Source: Bacteroidales bacterium
GTDB lineage: Bacteria > Bacteroidota > Bacteroidia > Bacteroidales > Muribaculaceae
Direction of reading: 5' to 3'
DNA length: 36,313 nt
Assembly: GCA_030524765.1 (NCBI GenBank)
Contig: JAUNGA010000019.1
Span: forward strand, 1-36,313
Shown: in pieces, positions 2,262-20,033 of the stretch
Position numbering within the stretch: the first letter of the stretch is position 1
How the letters are laid out: the number at the start of each line of letters is the position of its first letter
The notes under the pieces: generated by a model
The model's database searches: none
Told to the model about the DNA's origin: nothing
Seen by the model: the letters and a program-made list of their open reading frames with translations, nothing else
Translations under genes and position numbers: made by a program

Positions 2262-2684
2262 TCAGCAATCATGACGGGTCAGGGTGGCCGGACGATAATG
2301 ACGGGCATCAACCGACATGCAGGTTTGTGCGATCGAGAGAAAACCGTCGGTGATACCGGCAGCCGAGTAGACGATGTGCAGTGTCATGAGTCTGATGGCA
2401 TTTGCGATGACATGGCGCAGACGAGAGGCATCGGCCATATCGTCGATAGTGAAAGTGACCGTGCCGCCGTCAGGATCGCATGACGAGTCGATGACACCGC
2501 GGCCGATCATGGCAGCCGATACTGCCGAAGCCGCGTCGGCTATGACGCGCGAGAGAGCCGCGGCATGGTCGCGGTGCATGATCACCGGCGGGCGGTCGTT
2601 GTCACGGGCACCGAGATACATGACGGCAGTCGATGCATAGATTGACTCGAGGATGTCTGAAATTGCAAAATTCAATGTTTTCAT
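2262..2684 (-). CDS. Small protein of the phage-derived cassette, unknown function
   Basis: 140 aa, starting MKTLNFAISDILESIY. The ATG at 2684 overlaps the stop of the preceding gene (ATGA), which decides the start over a longer in-frame extension running back through that gene. There is no signal peptide or membrane segment. The N-terminal half looks helical (ISDILESIYASTAVMYLGA, then an Ala-rich stretch) and the middle has a short beta-like segment (GGTVTFTIDDM). No family is recognised. Position beside capsid and portal genes, and a loose resemblance to small helical head/neck proteins of Bacteroidetes phages, suggest a phage-derived role; that is inference. It is the last gene of its transcription unit, and only an AT-rich spacer separates it from the BspA-like gene. 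Confidence 0.7.
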   Translation of the reverse strand: MKTLNFAISDILESIYASTAVMYLGARDNDRPPVIMHRDHAAALSRVIADAASAVSAAMIGRGVIDSSCDPDGGTVTFTIDDMADASRLRHVIANAIRLMTLHIVYSAAGITDGFLSIAQTCMSVDARHYRPATLTRHDC

Positions 2685-3085
2685 AGGTTTTCGTTGATAT
2701 GTTGACGCAGAATCTGCATGGCTCTGCGCCGAGTGATGTAAAAACGTGGTTGGCCGGCGTTGCCCACGCACAGCTGCATAATCATGTTGTCGAGAGGGCG
2801 GTCGGGGTTGCGTGCGATCATGTCGCATAAATCGCGATACATGTCGGCCCATTGCCGCCGAGGGCCGTCATAGGTACCCCGAGGCTCGCGGTTGTCGGCA
2901 AGCGCCCGCGACAAGATAGCTTTGGCACGGTAAAAGTCGACATAATAGACCGGTGCGCGCCCGGCGAGCACATGACCGACGATCATGTCGGCGGTCAGTG
3001 CCCGTCCGCGGCGTGCCTCATCGAGCTGATAGGCCATGCATCGGCGGATGAATTCGCGATTGCGTGAATGTGTTGAGTGACTCAT
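2681..3085 (-). CDS. Small basic protein with two copies of a PxxYxxxxRAxxIL motif
   Basis: 134 aa, Arg-rich, no signal peptide. It carries an internal duplication. Residues about 42-58 read GRAPVYYVDFYRAKAIL and residues about 111-126 read GQPRFYITRRRAMQIL. Each copy has P, then an aromatic pair, V or I, then RA and IL, and each is preceded by a helix containing D-MI. The repeat suggests two related small domains, possibly nucleic-acid binding given the charge; that is inference. It has its own AT-rich promoter and is translationally coupled (ATGA) to the 140-aa gene downstream. It follows the portal gene by 92 bp. Coding is supported by the coupling and promoter; the function is not recognised. 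Confidence 0.7.
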   Translation of the reverse strand: MSHSTHSRNREFIRRCMAYQLDEARRGRALTADMIVGHVLAGRAPVYYVDFYRAKAILSRALADNREPRGTYDGPRRQWADMYRDLCDMIARNPDRPLDNMIMQLCVGNAGQPRFYITRRRAMQILRQHINENL

Positions 3086-3121
3086 AGGTAAGAGATGAAC
3101 TGTTGATTGATTTTAACAATG

Positions 3122-3152
3122 CAAAATTACAACATTATTCATAAGAAGTCAA
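3122..3152 (-). promoter_or_regulatory. Promoter of the two small cassette genes
   Basis: On the minus strand a TTG (3152-3150) is followed after exactly 20 bp by TAATTTTG (3129-3122), a good Bacteroidetes promoter. It sits in the AT-rich gap between the portal stop and the 134-aa gene and would give a leader of about 33 nt. It makes 3085-2262 separately expressible from the capsid genes. Confidence 0.6.
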
Positions 3153-3177
3153 CAATAAATATTGAATTTAGCAACTT

Positions 3178-4500
3178 TTAACAATTATCAGCCATAGTCT
3201 CACGCACTTTTTCATCGCGATCGACTGTAAATGAGACAAATGTCTCAAGAATGTCAGTGAGAGCGACAGAGGCGTTGCGCACCTGAGCGTCGTAAAGCCC
3301 GGCACCGGTGGCCGCCGGCACATTGCGTCCGAGCAGAGCGTCGCTGATACCCGAGATCTCGCCCATGAGCCTCATCTGCAGGTTGAGGGCCTGATAGGCG
3401 CCCGAATCAGCCGTGTTGGATATGACCTGTGTGGGCATATCGCCTGTGTTGTCGATCGGAATGACCGAATCGGGTGCGGCCCACATGCGGGCGACATCAT
3501 CAAGCCCCATACCCTTGGGCAGACGCCTGACGGGATACAACAGCGTGCCTTTGGCCGAGCTGGCCATCATCGTGTCGATGAGCACCACGAGACGGTTGAC
3601 GGCGCGCTGCTGATCGATGACGTCCTCGACAAACGAGTGTATCTCGCCGTCGGTGAGCGGATATAGCCGCAGGACAAAGGGGTGCGAGCCATGTCGGTAG
3701 GGCGAGTCGAACTCGTCGACGACGGTGCCGTCGGGCGCGAGCCACCGGCAACGCCACACAAACTGCATATGGAGCCGACCGCCCCGGCCCCGCACGGCGC
3801 GCGAATCGAGTGTCCACACCTCGATGACGCGATATTTGCCGGCGGGGGCGCGGAAGAAGTCGACCGCCGCAGGGGTGGCAATGCCCAGCGATGTGTCGGC
3901 GCCGAAAGCACGGTCGCCCGCGCCGCCGCCGAACAGCCGCCCCAGACGCTCGGCGCGCGAGGCCGACCCGCGTGCAAAACGGTTGATGATCTCGGGCAGC
4001 GACATGGCATGCAGCATGCCTATCATCTCGATGTCGAGGCCCCGCGGATCGGTGTAGCGGCTGACAAAGAACGAGCGCGGATTGACATTGTCGATCCACA
4101 CACCGGCTCCGCCGGGACGGCTCTCGGCCACGACACGCTGCACGGCGCATCCCGAGATGACAAACTCCTCGAGCATGCGGGCGTCGAGATCGGCAAGACG
4201 ATTGCGCGCGGCCACCGAGTCATGGCCGGAGTCGTAGCGCCCCGTGTCGGCGGCCATGTTGCGATAACGGCCCACGATGGCCTTGACCATCTGGCGTATG
4301 AGATTGTTGGTGAGCGGACGGCGGCCTTTGGCGAGCAGCAGGTCGCGCTCGGTGACTATGTGGCCGGCGTGGTCATCGACAGGCTCTGACCACTGGTCGC
4401 CGTAGGTAAAGCGTTTGTGCCGGTCGCGGCCCTCCCTGAAAGCCGACGCGGCGAGCCACGCATCGCAAGCGGCGCGCAGCACTTCGATATTCTGGTTCAT
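3178..4500 (-). CDS. Phage portal protein, short form
   Basis: 440 aa. Portal rings form the DNA entry and exit pore of a capsid and dock the terminase and neck. Portal-like features: the N-terminal KRFTYGDQW segment, LTNNLIRQMVKAIVGRYR at about residues 82-99, the loop VDNVNPRSFFVSRY-like stretch near 140-150, VIEVWTLDSR and a long helix FVEDVIDQQRAVNRLVVLIDTM near 265-290. These fit P22/podovirus-type and Bacteroidetes phage portals. The protein stops at KVRETMADNC, just after the helical stretch where such portals normally continue for 100 or more residues, so it looks C-terminally shortened. The downstream DNA is an AT-rich spacer with a promoter, not a continuing frame. The start overlaps the stop of the 179-aa gene (ATGA). 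It is transcribed after the capsid gene, the reverse of the usual phage order. Composition matches the host, suggesting long residence. Confidence 0.75.
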   Translation of the reverse strand: MNQNIEVLRAACDAWLAASAFREGRDRHKRFTYGDQWSEPVDDHAGHIVTERDLLLAKGRRPLTNNLIRQMVKAIVGRYRNMAADTGRYDSGHDSVAARNRLADLDARMLEEFVISGCAVQRVVAESRPGGAGVWIDNVNPRSFFVSRYTDPRGLDIEMIGMLHAMSLPEIINRFARGSASRAERLGRLFGGGAGDRAFGADTSLGIATPAAVDFFRAPAGKYRVIEVWTLDSRAVRGRGGRLHMQFVWRCRWLAPDGTVVDEFDSPYRHGSHPFVLRLYPLTDGEIHSFVEDVIDQQRAVNRLVVLIDTMMASSAKGTLLYPVRRLPKGMGLDDVARMWAAPDSVIPIDNTGDMPTQVISNTADSGAYQALNLQMRLMGEISGISDALLGRNVPAATGAGLYDAQVRNASVALTDILETFVSFTVDRDEKVRETMADNC

Positions 4501-5036
4501 AATGCATAGGGGTCAATGGATTGTGGAATGGTGGCGAGCAACGACTCGTCGAGCACATACGACTCGGGGCCCGGATCGATGACGGCCATAAGCGAGGCGA
4601 CGGTGGGCGTCGTGGCGGGCATGCACAGCAATGACCGCCCGCAGGCCACGACCGCCGGCTCGCAGATACCGGGCAGGGTGTAGGGCGATGCCGCCCGCGC
4701 CATGACTCGCCGGGCCTCATCGCCGCCGACGGGCCCGACGGCGCGCTGCCAGCCGGCCAGCGCGACAGAGGCCACACGACGGCAGCCGTCGGGCAGGTCG
4801 ATCCGCGCACAGCAGCCATCGGCCACGGCGGTGACCCCGGCGGCTATGTCGGTGAGCGTTAGGCGGTCGAGCGGAGCGGTATCAAGCAGGCCGAGATACC
4901 AGAGCCGCATGCGGCGCCCGATATATGCGTCGATGTCGATGCCGTCGACGCGCGAGAGGGTCATATCGGAGCGGAGGGTGTCGATGCCAAGGGCGTTGCG
5001 CCACAATGAGAGCATCTGAGATTTGGTGTAGATCAT
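4497..5036 (-). CDS. Phage-cassette protein between capsid and portal, unknown function
   Basis: 179 aa, beginning MIYTKSQMLSLWRNALG. There is no signal peptide and no clear membrane helix. The first 60 residues appear helical (RVDGIDIDAYIGRRMRLWYLG), followed by a beta-rich Cys-containing part. By position, downstream of the capsid gene and coupled to the portal by an ATGA overlap, it could be a head-completion or connector-like protein. No motif proves this. An 80-bp gap containing a strong hairpin separates it from the capsid gene, so its expression is probably lower than that of the capsid. Confidence 0.65.
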   Translation of the reverse strand: MIYTKSQMLSLWRNALGIDTLRSDMTLSRVDGIDIDAYIGRRMRLWYLGLLDTAPLDRLTLTDIAAGVTAVADGCCARIDLPDGCRRVASVALAGWQRAVGPVGGDEARRVMARAASPYTLPGICEPAVVACGRSLLCMPATTPTVASLMAVIDPGPESYVLDESLLATIPQSIDPYAL

Positions 5037-5055
5037 TGTTTCAATTACAATAAAG

Positions 5056-5098
5056 CGGCCCGCGGCGGAATGCCGGGCATGACATGCGCCGCAGGCCG
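5056..5098 (-). terminator. Hairpin between capsid gene and downstream cassette genes (attenuator candidate)
   Basis: Arms CGGCCTGCGGCG and CGCCGCGGGCCG (minus strand) form a 12-bp GC-rich stem with one U-G wobble and a 19-nt loop. It is followed by C, then TTTATTG, a weak T tract. It lies directly after the capsid stop. A partial terminator here would favour capsid over portal transcripts. Confidence 0.55.
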
Positions 5099-5116
5099 TA
5101 TCACTGAGCGATCAGA

Positions 5117-6364
5117 TTATCCGCGGATGATCTTGAGGTGCGACTTGGGGTAGCGCAGCACGAGACATGAGGCCTCGGTGAGCACGACGGCATCGGTGTT
5201 GCGCACACCCGAGCGACGCAGGTCGAGGGTCTCGGCGTTGAAGGGGATGTGGCAGTATTTGGTCATATAGTCGGGATCGATGATGAATCCGTCGCCGCGG
5301 TGGTCGCAGTTGTCAAAGACCTCGCTGTGCAGCACATAGAGCGTGCCGAAGTTAGAGCGGATCTCGCGGAACTCGATACCCCACCTTACAAAGCTCTCGC
5401 CGGCAAAGACGACCTTGTCGCAGGTGAGCTTGCTGAGCAGCTGTATGAGGTCGGTGCCGGCCACGAGAATCTTGCGACGCGAGCCGTTGTTGCCGGTAAA
5501 GGCCCGGGCGCACAGGTCGACGAGGTTGTCTGAGGTGAAGTTGTCGTAGTCGATGCGGAAGACATTGTCGGTCTGATTCCATATACCGCCGGTGAGATAG
5601 ACATACTCGCCCTTGCTGCTGTCATAGATTCTGGCACGCGAGCCGAAGAGGAAATTTTTCTCCATGCCGAGGCGCATGTCGAATACGGCCGCCTCTTCCT
5701 GGTCGGTAAATGTCCATCCGACCTCCTTGTCGGCGATCTTCTGGAGGGTCGACTGCTCGACCTGCATCTTGAATATCTGGCAATTGTTGCGCTCCTTGCG
5801 GGGCAGGGCCTGGAACTGGGGAGTCTGCACGTCGAGCTCGGTGGCCGCTCGGCCCATGCGGATGACGCGCTGAGTGGTGCCCATGCGCGAGAGGACGGGA
5901 GCATTGTCATCGTCGCCGCCGGCATTCACAGGTGCCACCACGAGTGTGCCGTCGTCGCGGATGTCGTAGATGTAGCACACCAGAGCCTCTTTGCCGACCT
6001 CGTCGGAGGGGAGCAGGATCGTCTCGGATTTCTCGAAAATCTTGTAGTCGGAGACTTTCATATCGAACGTCCAGAGCCCGTTGCCACGGTTGATCATGGC
6101 AGGCGAATTGACAGGCTCGGAAAGCTTGGTATCGGTCTTCTTGGTGTCGACGCTATAGTATTCGACCGTCATCGATCCGGCATTGCGCGCACCGGCACAG
6201 CGCGACAGCTGGTCAATGGGGGTGGCCATAGGACGCACACGCACGATGCGCTCGTCGATGGCGTTGCGCAGCAGACCGGGGGCTGCGGCGACGGTGGCCG
6301 ATGTGGTGAGAGGCGCGCCTGCCACGTGCAGGCCGTCGTTGGTTCCGTTTACGATTTTTTCCAT
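5117..6364 (-). CDS. Phage major capsid protein (HK97-fold, SU10/DUF5309-like)
   Basis: 415 aa, typical length for an HK97-fold capsid protein, no signal peptide. Features fitting the family: an N-terminal arm with many small residues and DERIVRVRPMATPIDQL, a central helix/E-loop-like region (YDIRDDGTLVVAPVNAGGDDDNAPVL and the acidic segment around it), the spine-like helix region near EEAAVFDMRLGMEKNFLFGSRARI, and a C-terminal part of alternating strands: KILVAGTDLIQLLSKL, GIEFREIRSNFGTLYVLH, GFIIDPDYMTKYC and DAVVLTEASCLVLRYPKSH. These resemble SU10-like capsid proteins of Bacteroidetes phages. The frame is intact. Upstream is a 71-aa Pro-rich gene (27-bp gap), downstream a hairpin and then the portal. 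No scaffold, protease or terminase is recognisable. An encapsulin is less likely because a portal is present. Confidence 0.75.
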   Translation of the reverse strand: MEKIVNGTNDGLHVAGAPLTTSATVAAAPGLLRNAIDERIVRVRPMATPIDQLSRCAGARNAGSMTVEYYSVDTKKTDTKLSEPVNSPAMINRGNGLWTFDMKVSDYKIFEKSETILLPSDEVGKEALVCYIYDIRDDGTLVVAPVNAGGDDDNAPVLSRMGTTQRVIRMGRAATELDVQTPQFQALPRKERNNCQIFKMQVEQSTLQKIADKEVGWTFTDQEEAAVFDMRLGMEKNFLFGSRARIYDSSKGEYVYLTGGIWNQTDNVFRIDYDNFTSDNLVDLCARAFTGNNGSRRKILVAGTDLIQLLSKLTCDKVVFAGESFVRWGIEFREIRSNFGTLYVLHSEVFDNCDHRGDGFIIDPDYMTKYCHIPFNAETLDLRRSGVRNTDAVVLTEASCLVLRYPKSHLKIIRG

Positions 6365-6391
6365 TTTAAATAAGTTTTTGTGGTTGGGTGG

Positions 6392-6607
6392 TTAGAAAGA
6401 AAAATTGTCGGGCCAGAAAGATGACCGGCGCATGCCCGACAGAAAAGCGGGCGCCGATGGGGTGGAGTCGTCGGGCTGAGCAGGTCGCGGGGTCAGTGAG
6501 CCATAGGTGACGGGCTCGTCGGCCGCAGGGGCGGTCGGGGCGGTGTGAGCGTCGGGCCCGGGCGCCGGATGACCGAGCGGCGCGGTAGTGGGATCTTCGT
6601 TGATCAT
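6392..6607 (-). CDS. Small Pro/Ala-rich protein leading the capsid cassette
   Basis: 71 aa. Residues 1-50 are low-complexity and rich in Pro, Ala, Thr and Asp. The C-terminus is compact and aromatic (MRRSSFWPDNFSF). There is no signal peptide. It is the first gene after the operator-promoter and ends 27 bp before the capsid start, which supports coding. A disordered body with a defined C-terminal tail is compatible with a scaffold-like or capsid-binding role, but no homology is visible to me. It could also be a leader peptide. Confidence 0.55.
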   Translation of the reverse strand: MINEDPTTAPLGHPAPGPDAHTAPTAPAADEPVTYGSLTPRPAQPDDSTPSAPAFLSGMRRSSFWPDNFSF

Positions 6608-7618: not shown

Positions 7619-8617
7619 ATGATCGAACGCATCATTCTGATAGACAACGCCGACCCGGTCAACTTCTACGGCGTAAACAATGCCAACATGCAGCTGATAC
7701 GCAATCTCTTCCCGAAACTGCGCATCGCCGCCCGGGGCTCAGTCATCAAGGTCATCGGCGAAGACTCGGAGACGGCCGAGTTTGAGCGCAAGATCAAAGA
7801 GCTCGAGGACTATACGGCACGGTACAACAAACTGTCAGAAGACGTCATACTCGATATTGTCAAGGGCGAGAATCCGCGCGAGCTCAAGAAAGACAACGTG
7901 ATCATATACGGCATAAACGGCAAACCCATACAAGGCCGCACCCCCAACCAGCAGCGTCTGGTCGAGGAATTTGTCAACAACGATCTGACATTCGCCCTGG
8001 GCCCCGCCGGCACGGGCAAGACCTACATCGCCATCGCCCTGGCCGTGCGCGCGCTCAAGAACAAAGAGGTGCGCAAGATCATCCTCTCGCGTCCGGCTGT
8101 CGAGGCGGGCGAGAAACTCGGATTCCTGCCCGGCGACATGAAAGACAAGATCGACCCCTACCTGCAGCCGCTCTACGACGCGCTCGAAGACATGATTCCG
8201 GCCGTCAAGCTGCGCGAATACATGGAATCGAAGGTCATACAGATCGCTCCGCTGGCCTTTATGCGCGGACGCACGCTCAACGACGCCGTAATCGTGCTCG
8301 ACGAGGCCCAGAACACCACCACCCACCAGATAAAGATGTTTCTCACACGTCTGGGCATGAACGCCAAAATGATCATAACCGGCGACGTGACCCAGATCGA
8401 TCTGCCCCGCTCGACATCGTCGGGCCTGATACGCGCCCTCGACGTGCTCAAGGGCGTCAAGGGCATCGGCCGGGTGGAGTTCGGCAAAAAAGACATCGTG
8501 CGCCACGCGCTGGTGCAACGTATCGTCGAGGCCTACGAACGCGCCGAAAAAGACGAGAAAGACCGCACGGCACCGCCAGCCGCCACGGCTGACAGCGACT
8601 CGGCGGCCACAGATTAA
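7619..8617 (+). CDS. phoH: PhoH family ATPase
   Basis: 332 aa from ATG 7619; a GTG at 7562 would overlap the SDR stop and adds an unlikely N-terminus. The protein has an N-terminal KH-like region with the conserved NNANMQLIRNLFPKL, Walker A GPAGTGKT near residues 128-135 and Walker B VIVLDEAQ near 223-230, followed by the sensor segment MIITGDVTQIDLP. The charged Glu/Lys/Ala tail is variable. PhoH/PhoL proteins are cytoplasmic P-loop NTPases linked to RNA metabolism and ribosome maturation, with the exact role in Bacteroidetes unclear. It lies between the SDR gene and purC (36-bp gap), probably in the same transcript. Confidence 0.92.
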   Translation: MIERIILIDNADPVNFYGVNNANMQLIRNLFPKLRIAARGSVIKVIGEDSETAEFERKIKELEDYTARYNKLSEDVILDIVKGENPRELKKDNVIIYGINGKPIQGRTPNQQRLVEEFVNNDLTFALGPAGTGKTYIAIALAVRALKNKEVRKIILSRPAVEAGEKLGFLPGDMKDKIDPYLQPLYDALEDMIPAVKLREYMESKVIQIAPLAFMRGRTLNDAVIVLDEAQNTTTHQIKMFLTRLGMNAKMIITGDVTQIDLPRSTSSGLIRALDVLKGVKGIGRVEFGKKDIVRHALVQRIVEAYERAEKDEKDRTAPPAATADSDSAATD

Positions 8618-17778: not shown

Positions 17779-18534
17779 TCACGACCCGATCGTGTCGATG
17801 TAGCCGCGTGAGTAGCTGCGATATGTGTCACGCTCGAAATCGTCATCGGGCTCGGCAAGCTCAGTAGCATGATCGAGACCGAAAGCCAGGTATTTGATGG
17901 TCAGGCCGCGGGCCAGCCACTGGCTCTCGTAGTGGGTGCGTATCGAGAGGATGGGGTCGACGAGATCGGAATGATACAGATCGTCGGTATCGACTTCCTT
18001 GACCAGACCGTTGAGATCGGCCATGGCACGTGTGTAGGCGTAGAGAAACGGGCTGTCGGTCTTGAGACGCACCATGCCGCCGTCAACGAGCACGCGGCGG
18101 TAAAGATCCATGAAGCGGGTCGACGTGAGACGCTTTCGCACCTTCTTCATCTGCGGGTCGGGGAATGTGATCCATATCTCGCTCACCTCACCGGGGGCGA
18201 AGAAAGCGTCGAGCAGTTCGATTGAAGTGCGCAGGAAAGCCACGTTTGCCATCGCGAGATCACGCGCACGGGTTGCGCCGGCATGCATCCTGGCGCCCTT
18301 GATGTCGATGCCTATGAAATTTTTTTCGGGATAGAGCTGTGCCAGGCCTACGGTATATTCTCCTTTGCCGCAGCCGAGCTCGAGCACAATAGGATTGTCA
18401 TTGCCAAAGAAATCGCTGTGCCAGCGTCCGCGCAGCGGAAATGAGCCTTCGGCCTTGAGACGGGCAAACGGATACTGGAAGACCAGATCGATGGTCTCCA
18501 TTTCGGCAAACTTGCTCAGTTTGTTCTTTCCCAT
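17779..18534 (-). CDS. trmB: tRNA (guanine-N7-)-methyltransferase
   Basis: 251 aa from ATG 18534 ([13 protein letters not shown]). A longer in-frame extension overlaps the LRR gene and is rejected. SAM-dependent m7G46 modification of tRNA. Motifs: [17 protein letters not shown] (SAM motif I), [28 protein letters not shown] (the TrmB-specific FPDPW-like block, here with Q after P) and a conserved Asp in LKTDS. It starts 14 bp after the LRR gene stop and may share its transcript. Confidence 0.93.
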
Positions 18535-18548
18535 AAAAAGTCGATCGC

Positions 18549-20033
18549 TTACTTGGCCAGTTTGAGGGTAGCGGTGCGGCCGTCGCCCAGCAGGGCCGAC
18601 ACTATGTAGATGCGTGTGCTCATCCCCTCGGTGTCGACACACACCATATCGCTCATCGGCTCGAGGCTCACGAGCAGCACGCCTGCGGTGTCGTAGAGCG
18701 AGAGGCGTTCGATCTCGACGCCATCGATCGAAACCTGCAGTTCGTCGCCTACAAAACGGCCGCGCAGTCCGGCCACAGTCTCGGGAATGACTGCGTCGTC
18801 GACGCCTGTCACACCCTCTACGATGGTGAATTCTTTCCATTGGTCGGCGGCCTCATAGGCCTCTTTGTCGCCGGTCGGCACATAGAGGATTGCCTTGGGC
18901 TGGTCTACGCCGTCCCATACGTTGTCGCCAAGTGCGGGCACACCGTCAGACGATACGGTGAGAGATTTAAGACCTGTCATGTCTTTCATCGCATAGCTGC
19001 CGATGCTCTCGACAGTCGACGGCAGTACGAGCGTCTCGACCTGGGTCATATTGGCCAGAGCATAGTCGCCGATATCGGTTGTCTGGGGAGAGAGCATATA
19101 GGTGGTGTCCATCTTGGTATCGTCCACATAAGCATAGTCGGGTACGGCTGTAGCTGTGGTCGAGGCACGCATCTCGGTCAACGCAGGGCAATGGAATACG
19201 ATGCCCTCGCCGACATTGGGCACTGCGCCCATGCGCACCGATACGAGCTCGGGCATTTTGGCAAACGCCCAGTCGCCCACGGTCTGCAGCTGGCGGCAGT
19301 TCTCAAGATTTATGTTTTTGAGTCCGGCGGCGGTGAAAGCCTCATCGCCGATCTCAGTCAGCACCGGACCGAATGTGAAATTTCTGAGCGAAGGACAGTC
19401 AGCGAACGCACGGTCGCCCACCACGGTCACTTTGTCAGAGCCGTTGACGGTCTGCAGGCCGGTACAGCCGGCAAAGCTGCGCACACCCAGCTCGACATTA
19501 TTGGTGATGGTCACCGTAGTCAGTTTGGGGCTGCCGGCAAAAGTACCCGAGCCGAGCTCGGCACACGAAACAGTCACACTGGCAAGCTGGGGGCAACCTG
19601 TAAACGCGCCGTCGGCCACGGTAACGACCGTCGAAGGCAGGGTGACCGAACGCAGATCAGAGCCGGCAAACGCACCCTCGCCGATCGAGACTGGGGTGAC
19701 GGGCAGCGTGAGACTCTGCAGTCGTGAACCCGAGAAAACAAATCTGGGTATGGTAGCCTCGGGATATGACACCGAGCCCTTGAGTTTTACGCCGCGGTAT
19801 GCCTCGATTGTGGCATTGCGCAGGTTAAGACTGGTCAGAGCGGGCATGGCCTCGCTCACGAAATATAGATCGGCTGCATTGATACGGCCCGACAGCACGA
19901 GCTCGGTGACACCGTCGGTCGAACTGATGTTGTGCGACAACTGGCCGGCAACCGGATTATTGACAGTCAATGCATTGGCCGCCATAACCGATGTCGCGGC
20001 CATCAAAAGAAGAGATATGGTATTTCGAAACAT
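18549..20033 (-). CDS. BspA-like LRR protein with T9SS-type C-terminal domain
   Basis: 494 aa. A signal peptide ([18 protein letters not shown]) is followed by an N-terminal beta region, then about ten LRR_5-type repeats (such as [20 protein letters not shown]) through about residue 395. A closing segment ends in [19 protein letters not shown]. The last 70 residues, [17 protein letters not shown] to TLKLAK, resemble a type IX secretion sorting domain (xIYDxxGxxV, then YIVxV, then the short basic end). So it is probably exported across the outer membrane and surface-attached. Ligand unknown. A poor TAACTTCG box lies upstream. It precedes trmB by 14 bp. Confidence 0.88.

Follow-up and report, generated by a model that had tools for sequence, protein, structure and literature searches.

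What a phage-type capsid gene and a portal gene are doing among host genes is the question raised by a six-gene block at positions 2262–6607 of a 36,313-nucleotide stretch from a Bacteroidales bacterium of the family Muribaculaceae (assembly GCA_030524765.1, contig JAUNGA010000019.1, positions 1 to 36,313; the whole stretch is called the window). The initial annotation of this DNA took the block for an isolated capsid-portal shell, domesticated by its host rather than left by a freshly decaying prophage. Domestication was borne out by family-wide conservation, single host clades, omega values near 0.1 and fading synteny of the flanks; isolation was not, because TerL and nozzle-like, terS-like and scaffold-like genes were conserved elsewhere in the genomes. 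We hold, at a probability of roughly 60%, that the window carries a single island of a particle system that is dispersed, is inherited vertically, resembles a gene transfer agent (GTA) and derives from a short-tailed Bacteroidales phage. The reading is carried by the identity of the genes, their dispersal and conservation, purifying selection, intact terminase motifs and co-divergence.

The isolated shell was abandoned after a terminase search of 25 genomes that contain the cassette. All 25 matched phrog_2, 22 of them at 1e-9 or better. The match in G130 was a different terminase, and its own TerL was found with a later TerL profile. Only weak matches were obtained in G052, G104 and G463, and G463 has a TerL according to the later profile. 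The weak matches look like PhoH-type ATPases; one at 7892–8383 of the window, for example, falls on PhoH. In the window's own genome an open TerL frame of 611 aa was located on contig C71 (about 17971–19806), preceded, with a 4-nt overlap, by an 832-aa gene (NOZ) that we call nozzle-like. The statement that there is no terminase or tail gene is thus correct for the window but not for the genome. The TerL profile also matched T4 gp17, and the residues that we take to be the Walker A region, the ESTA motif and the nuclease acidic residues were invariant in 20 sequences (18 host, two phage); the protein may be a working packaging motor. NOZ owes its name to its position after the adaptor-like gene in phage contig L213 and to a match between Barnesiella-type NOZ and a tail-appendage PHROG (1e-5); neither Pfam nor solved structures supported it.

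Profiles for TerL (18 host and two phage sequences, cut-off 1e-20) and for the major capsid protein, MCP (11 host and two phage rows), were applied to 397 Muribaculaceae genomes. TerL was matched in 360 and MCP in 300, counts that would take in prophages of the same phage lineage; the matches covered 29 of 30 genera and mostly came one per genome. Both were present in 282 genomes, TerL only in 78, capsid only in 18 and neither in 19 (Fisher p = 2e-4), leaving 37 genomes where TerL had no match at 1e-20. Three further genes were sought in 51 genomes, a hand-chosen set with problem cases included: portal was matched in 48 (misses G038, G091, G659), NOZ in 45 (misses G069, G182, G284, G005, G104, G659) and C5, a small cassette gene described below, in 47 (misses G091, G092, G483, G659). 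An order-wide sample gave MCP in 22 of 295 genomes (four Muribaculaceae, 17 from six other families and one from family f20) and TerL in 15 of 198; the TerL matches came from the families that had MCP, apart from a single weak one in f58. The six other families are loosely labelled 'Barnesiella-type' here, f109 being so called from its place in the tree beside Barnesiella An22. Their portal frames measured 622–724 aa. In many of their loci GP12 is retained together with a scaffold-like gene (about 252 aa) and with fibre-like and ejection-like genes, these last two named from sequence and position, with no Pfam match for those tested.

The components were widely scattered. In G173, which is a single contig, NOZ (in two pieces) lay at 0.926 Mb, TerL at 0.937, portal at 1.358, C5 at 1.818 and MCP at 1.894 Mb; with this spread of 0.97 Mb a particle would be unable to carry the genes as one complete set. 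G685, also a single contig, had NOZ at 1.132, portal at 1.149, C5 at 1.294, MCP at 1.395 and TerL at 1.428 Mb, while in G652, a third single contig, all genes fell inside 57 kb, yet in separate islands. Closer groupings also occurred: NOZ and TerL stood beside the capsid island at L044 and L049, and L182, whose capsid falls in the host clade, had the order NOZ-TerL-leader-capsid-adaptor-portal-C5. At L046 and L048 the leader and capsid genes alone remained together. The contig of L184 was a mirror image of itself, running from capsid to C6 and back, which is probably an assembly artefact. Of 51 PHROG families matched by 101 flanking open reading frames (ORFs) from 20 loci, 25 were listed, and none of these was an integrase; the clamp-loader, helicase and sigma-factor matches among those ORFs looked cellular.

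Five of the six cassette gene families matched head or packaging genes of one Bacteroides phage lineage, comprising phages BS-TP4, BF1-TP2 and BKO1-TP3 and related IMG/VR contigs. The MCP of these phages is about 37% and the portal about 31% identical to that of the window, and they have homologues of TerL, the scaffold-like and adaptor-like proteins, gp9 and NOZ. When family profiles were run against the available ORFs of the three phages, with E-values that refer to this small set, matches stood at 4e-117 or better for capsid, 8e-127 or better for portal and 2e-219 or better for TerL, and NOZ matched gp26/34 in two of the three (2e-11 and 3e-17). The phages differ from the host sets in having genomes of 64–68 kb, an annotated endolysin, a rhomboid gene (two of three) and, in BKO1-TP3, a replication gene, as well as longer portal and scaffold-like proteins and another gene order. 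In most IMG/VR relatives the portal is followed, on the opposite strand, by the terminase, any rhomboid gene and C5, and then by the scaffold-like, capsid, GP12 and adaptor-like genes. The capsid does precede the portal in the cassette, as had been remarked, whereas the related phages place the portal across the terminase block.

Contiguous sets were also encountered. TerL and capsid were about 7 kb apart at 141348–151983 of contig C81 in G415, and G530 had, besides its dispersed set, a second, contiguous one at about 32.7–41.4 kb of contig C32; both are likely to be ordinary prophages of the same lineage. A further observation concerned L180:1–17789 and L251, from an IMG/VR record of 27.5 kb. 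Its capsid falls in the host clade beside that of a Coprobacter metagenome-assembled genome; its genes are still arranged much as in a phage and include ejection-like, fibre-like, lysozyme and NOZ genes, but it gave no portal match.

Phylogenetic analysis gathered the 43 host-labelled capsid rows into one clade, set apart from 26 phages with support of 100/99 and in all 200 bootstraps; four of the 43 came from a viral collection, the phage rows L233, L246 and L248 were left out for their long branches, and type-B capsids, from a second lineage considered below, were not included. Likewise, 20 type-A host TerLs formed one clade apart from the phages (97/94, 96% of bootstraps). Median omega indicated purifying selection on MCP (0.096, 139 pairs), leader (0.088, 21 pairs) and adaptor-like protein (0.113, six pairs); these values were obtained by the Nei-Gojobori method from non-independent pairs of 78–99.5% identity with dS of 0.05–2.5, portal and C5 providing no usable pairs. 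Distances for MCP and TerL were correlated across 12 genomes (r = 0.83, or 0.79 once the rpoB signal was taken out), in several of which the two loci are far apart or on other contigs. Correlation with rpoB was 0.46 for MCP (Mantel p = 0.002) and 0.62 for TerL (Mantel p = 0.0002). The surroundings of the capsid gene changed with divergence: at least one flanking gene was held in common by 50 of 56 pairs at 85% capsid identity or more, 99 of 144 at 75–85%, 93 of 515 at 65–75% and 69 of 2445 below that. These counts concern pairs of 80 named loci with GP12 and fibre-like genes set aside, which lowered the closest bin from 98% to 89%, and the pattern is like that of loci passed down from ancestor to descendant while slowly changing place. 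By the clades, omega, flank synteny and Mantel tests, these phage-derived structural genes have been inherited vertically with the host.

The second lineage, type B, was recognised on inspection of five of the 78 TerL-only genomes (G030, G100, G102, G168, G209). A distant capsid (E = 2e-17 to 3e-23) was found near the portal in four of them, and none in the stretch examined of G102. In G030 and G100 the C5, scaffold-like and capsid genes, small genes, TerL and portal occupied about 7.5 kb between host-type genes. The TerLs of G030, G100 and G168 branched at two points within the clade of Bacteroides phages, and these three sequences suggest later, separate captures that each shrank to this one set. 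In G209 a lysis-type amidase gene adjoins the type-B capsid, so some second-lineage sets may be ordinary prophages.

The six minus-strand genes of the window all have open frames, as the initial annotation said, and its capsid and portal assignments were borne out by Pfam and PHROG; the assertion that no other phage genes accompany them failed, since scaffold-like, adaptor-like and terS-like genes are present too. The MCP gene (5117–6364, 415 aa) is of the SU10/HK97 type, matching Pfam SU10_MCP at 8e-49 and phrog_26635 at 2e-75, and the MCP profile matched a solved VP1 capsid (1e-12). Three of the 80 named host capsids were set aside, and of the 77 that have the anchor motif 72 carried an N-terminal hydrophobic, membrane-like segment; the window MCP and several of its genus are without it. 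The same segment occurred in the capsids of 61 of 63 phage contigs that had both TerL and MCP, near-copies included (capsid genes of L185–L248 and L070, L071, L179). A membrane-anchored shell as a novelty of the host was rejected, because phage capsids carry the segment as well. A rhomboid-type gene was matched by profile in 38 of these 63 contigs, and rhomboid cleavage of the capsid precursor was unsupported as a general rule, 25 contigs having the segment and no rhomboid match.

Upstream of the capsid gene lies its partner, the leader gene (6392–6607, 71 aa), a reduced scaffold-like protein that ends RRSSFWPDNFSF. It matched the profile LEAD at E = 7e-4 in a search of four proteins with filters off. 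Homologous leaders have EAExRGYLRGRNExIE and a C-terminal RxSVWD in common, similar elements being found in phage gp57, and the window leader retains only a C-terminal RRSSFW. Leaders within Muribaculaceae are shorter forms, and the link to phage scaffold-like gp10 was a modest one: two of the three phages gave E-values of 1.5e-4 and 2e-4, and the hhalign probability was only 16. Of 80 loci, 68 had a leader-profile match upstream of their capsid gene. A C-terminal peptide of the R-x-S-V/I/F-W type, a pattern picked after the sequences had been viewed, occurred on the ORF upstream of the capsid in 65 of 80 loci (L072–L151), against 71 of 6220 ORFs overall, those included; it is perhaps the capsid-binding tail of a scaffold.

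Downstream of the capsid gene, as in phages, is the adaptor-like gene (4497–5036, 179 aa), a presumptive head-completion protein by its position, whose family profile matched phage gp13 (1e-6 to 2e-11; hhalign probability 95.9). It overlaps by 4 nt the P22-type portal gene (3178–4500, 440 aa), which matched P22_portal at 2e-14 and phrog_156 at 5e-34; the portal profile also matched a solved portal. The window portal aligned to that profile in two pieces (7–241 and 282–480) and has an internal gap that is not seen in other host portals; the C-terminal part of the phage proteins was missing in 12 of 12 host portals, the window's included (alignment A7). C5 (2681–3085, 134 aa) matched its own family profile, of which it is a member, at E = 2e-51, and that profile matched phage gp9 at 1e-7 to 1e-14 (hhalign 96.4). 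Because gp9 sits in the phage terminase transcription unit, C5 is a candidate small terminase (terS-like), and no convincing match to solved structures was found for it. The start of C6 (2262–2684, 140 aa) lies within the stop of C5. C6 matched its family profile at E = 1.4e-7 in the four-protein search, and no function was assigned to it. Its relative in L150 had a weak match to phrog_19255 (E = 0.0066), a head-to-head comparison with the member of this PHROG in L180 gave nothing, and no C6 match was seen among the ORFs of the three Bacteroides phages.

On one side the cassette is flanked by a BspA-type leucine-rich-repeat gene. Scanning of 10 window proteins, two of them without a match, also revealed SDR, PhoH-like, PurC, UbiE, MTA/SAH nucleosidase, Ca/Na antiporter and ApbC-like genes of the housekeeping type, in agreement with the flanks first described. 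No tRNA and no normal prophage were found in the window. Base composition is indeed like that of the host: the G+C content is 0.606 in the cassette and 0.573 in the rest of the window, where 4.3-kb windows range from 0.528 to 0.617. A host-type promoter had also been proposed, and this was not upheld, as the strict pattern TTTG-N17-22-TAnnTTTG, which we presume to be that of host promoters, occurs twice in the window and neither time at the cassette.

In the mechanism that we propose for the GTA-like system, the scaffold remnant would guide assembly of the capsid protein, and portal and adaptor would form the vertex through which DNA enters. The terminase, whose gene lies elsewhere together with the nozzle-like one, would pump DNA in and cut it when the head is full, after which the nozzle may close the vertex and serve delivery. 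With the genes scattered and no replication or integration genes recognised among the neighbours listed, a particle could not carry its own set and would package host DNA; random packaging of mostly chromosomal DNA would then be followed by release and transfer. The initial annotation had allowed for a gene-transfer, storage or satellite-like particle, and the conservation of TerL and of the nozzle-like, terS-like and scaffold-like genes favours the first of these over the other two.

Several observations weigh against a GTA-like system. Neither particles nor packaged DNA nor transfer have so far been observed. Type-A host loci, the L180 record excepted, yielded no lysis gene, although a genome-wide search was not made, and the fibre-like and ejection-like genes were confined to Barnesiella-type genomes and L180, being absent from the Muribaculaceae loci examined. 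TerL is wanting in the 18 genomes with capsid only and the 19 with neither gene; G104, G052 and G005 are without it and are each about 99% complete. At least three genomes have broken portal frames (G052, G220 and G184, the last in one of its two copies), and the window's copy is itself a trimmed version of the system that may be weaker in function. C5 shows no clear shortening relative to its phage counterpart, unlike the small terminases of known GTAs, which PMC6854486 describes as shortened. The rank correlation between MCP and rpoB was just 0.11, and between G000 and G003 the MCP distance was 0.65 against 0.06 for rpoB; such fast divergence, with the low rank correlation, makes relaxed constraint or exchange possible in parts of the tree.

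Part of this is what decaying ordinary prophages, retained here and there by chance, would leave behind: the broken portals, the genomes lacking TerL, and the ordinary-looking prophages of the lineage in G415 and on contig C32 of G530. That explanation is very unlikely, given single host clades, omega near 0.1 and matches in 300–360 of 397 genomes and 29 of 30 genera, mostly one each. Type-A sets showed neither a contiguous phage genome nor random decay of frames, and absence or decay among relatives was not the rule, affecting the few species without TerL or with a broken portal. Phage genes might instead have been retained because they serve a different particle or packaging role than DNA transfer, for instance by obstructing infecting phages of this lineage through mixed capsids or portals or a competing terminase. 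Related phages that infect Bacteroides do exist, and the components are reduced, with short leaders and truncated portals, yet capsid, leader and adaptor remain under purifying selection. Interference has no obvious need, however, for invariant ATPase and nuclease residues in TerL, nor for the extra virion-like genes that accompany TerL, portal and capsid in Barnesiella-type genomes, and we think it unlikely.

A mobile capsid-forming satellite, like a phage-inducible chromosomal island (PICI) and spread with the help of a phage, would account for head and packaging genes of its own with few tail genes, and for the compact loci of about 7.5 kb in G030 and G100. It too is very improbable: the genes occupy several chromosomal places rather than a contiguous element, the listed PHROG families include no integrase, and close relatives have flanking genes in common. 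An encapsulin-like storage shell, loaded via the C-terminal peptide of the leader, would suit the strict pairing of leader and capsid, the closest in the system (68 of 80 loci by profile, 65 of 80 by the W motif), and the survival of these two alone at L046 and L048. A similar C-terminal motif is present in phage gp57, however, and portal and terminase persist away from the capsid gene (G173, G023, G024, G025, G021); what was found is not a shell without portal or terminase, as portal was matched in 48 of 51 genomes and TerL in 360 of 397. Storage is accordingly the explanation we would least expect.

The GTA-like reading can be extended, tentatively, to the first GTA of the Bacteroidota, with scattered head islands, a membrane-anchored capsid precursor in most lineages, its replacement in some Muribaculaceae by head/packaging modules captured later from the same phage lineage, and hence lasting selection for the particle; the amidase gene of G209 lowers the odds of this fuller version. 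Among the papers listed by searches of the open-licence PubMed Central (PMC) literature, none described the system. Muribaculaceae and Barnesiella-type bacteria are common in the gut, and the system, if real, would provide a built-in route of gene exchange there. Prophage finders would probably miss it because its genes are scattered, and it would reveal the extent to which a phage head operon may fragment under selection. With the genes named and a capsid to look out for, the question is directly testable.

Among known systems, encapsulins offer the likeness of an HK97-type shell adapted by bacteria and paired with a partner that has a conserved C-terminal peptide; the difference is that portal, adaptor-like and terminase genes are conserved here too. 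RcGTA of Rhodobacter capsulatus, with its relatives, is likewise a set of phage-derived head and packaging genes, TerL among them, that is inherited with the host. Its production draws on genes at no fewer than five loci (PMC7947584), and its small terminase is argued (PMC6854486) to be shortened and without a DNA-binding domain. In the present system the head genes themselves are split into islands, and host phylum and phage ancestor are different. For FpGTA of Faecalibacterium prausnitzii, PMC12946183 reports measured particles with about 9 kb of DNA, proteomics, and lysis genes in a second operon. These features, and a host from the Bacillota, set FpGTA apart from the Bacteroidota system; the likeness lies in a gut bacterium with capsid, portal, scaffold and terminase genes, proteins of the short-tailed type, and a GTA whose genes are divided, in that case between two operons.

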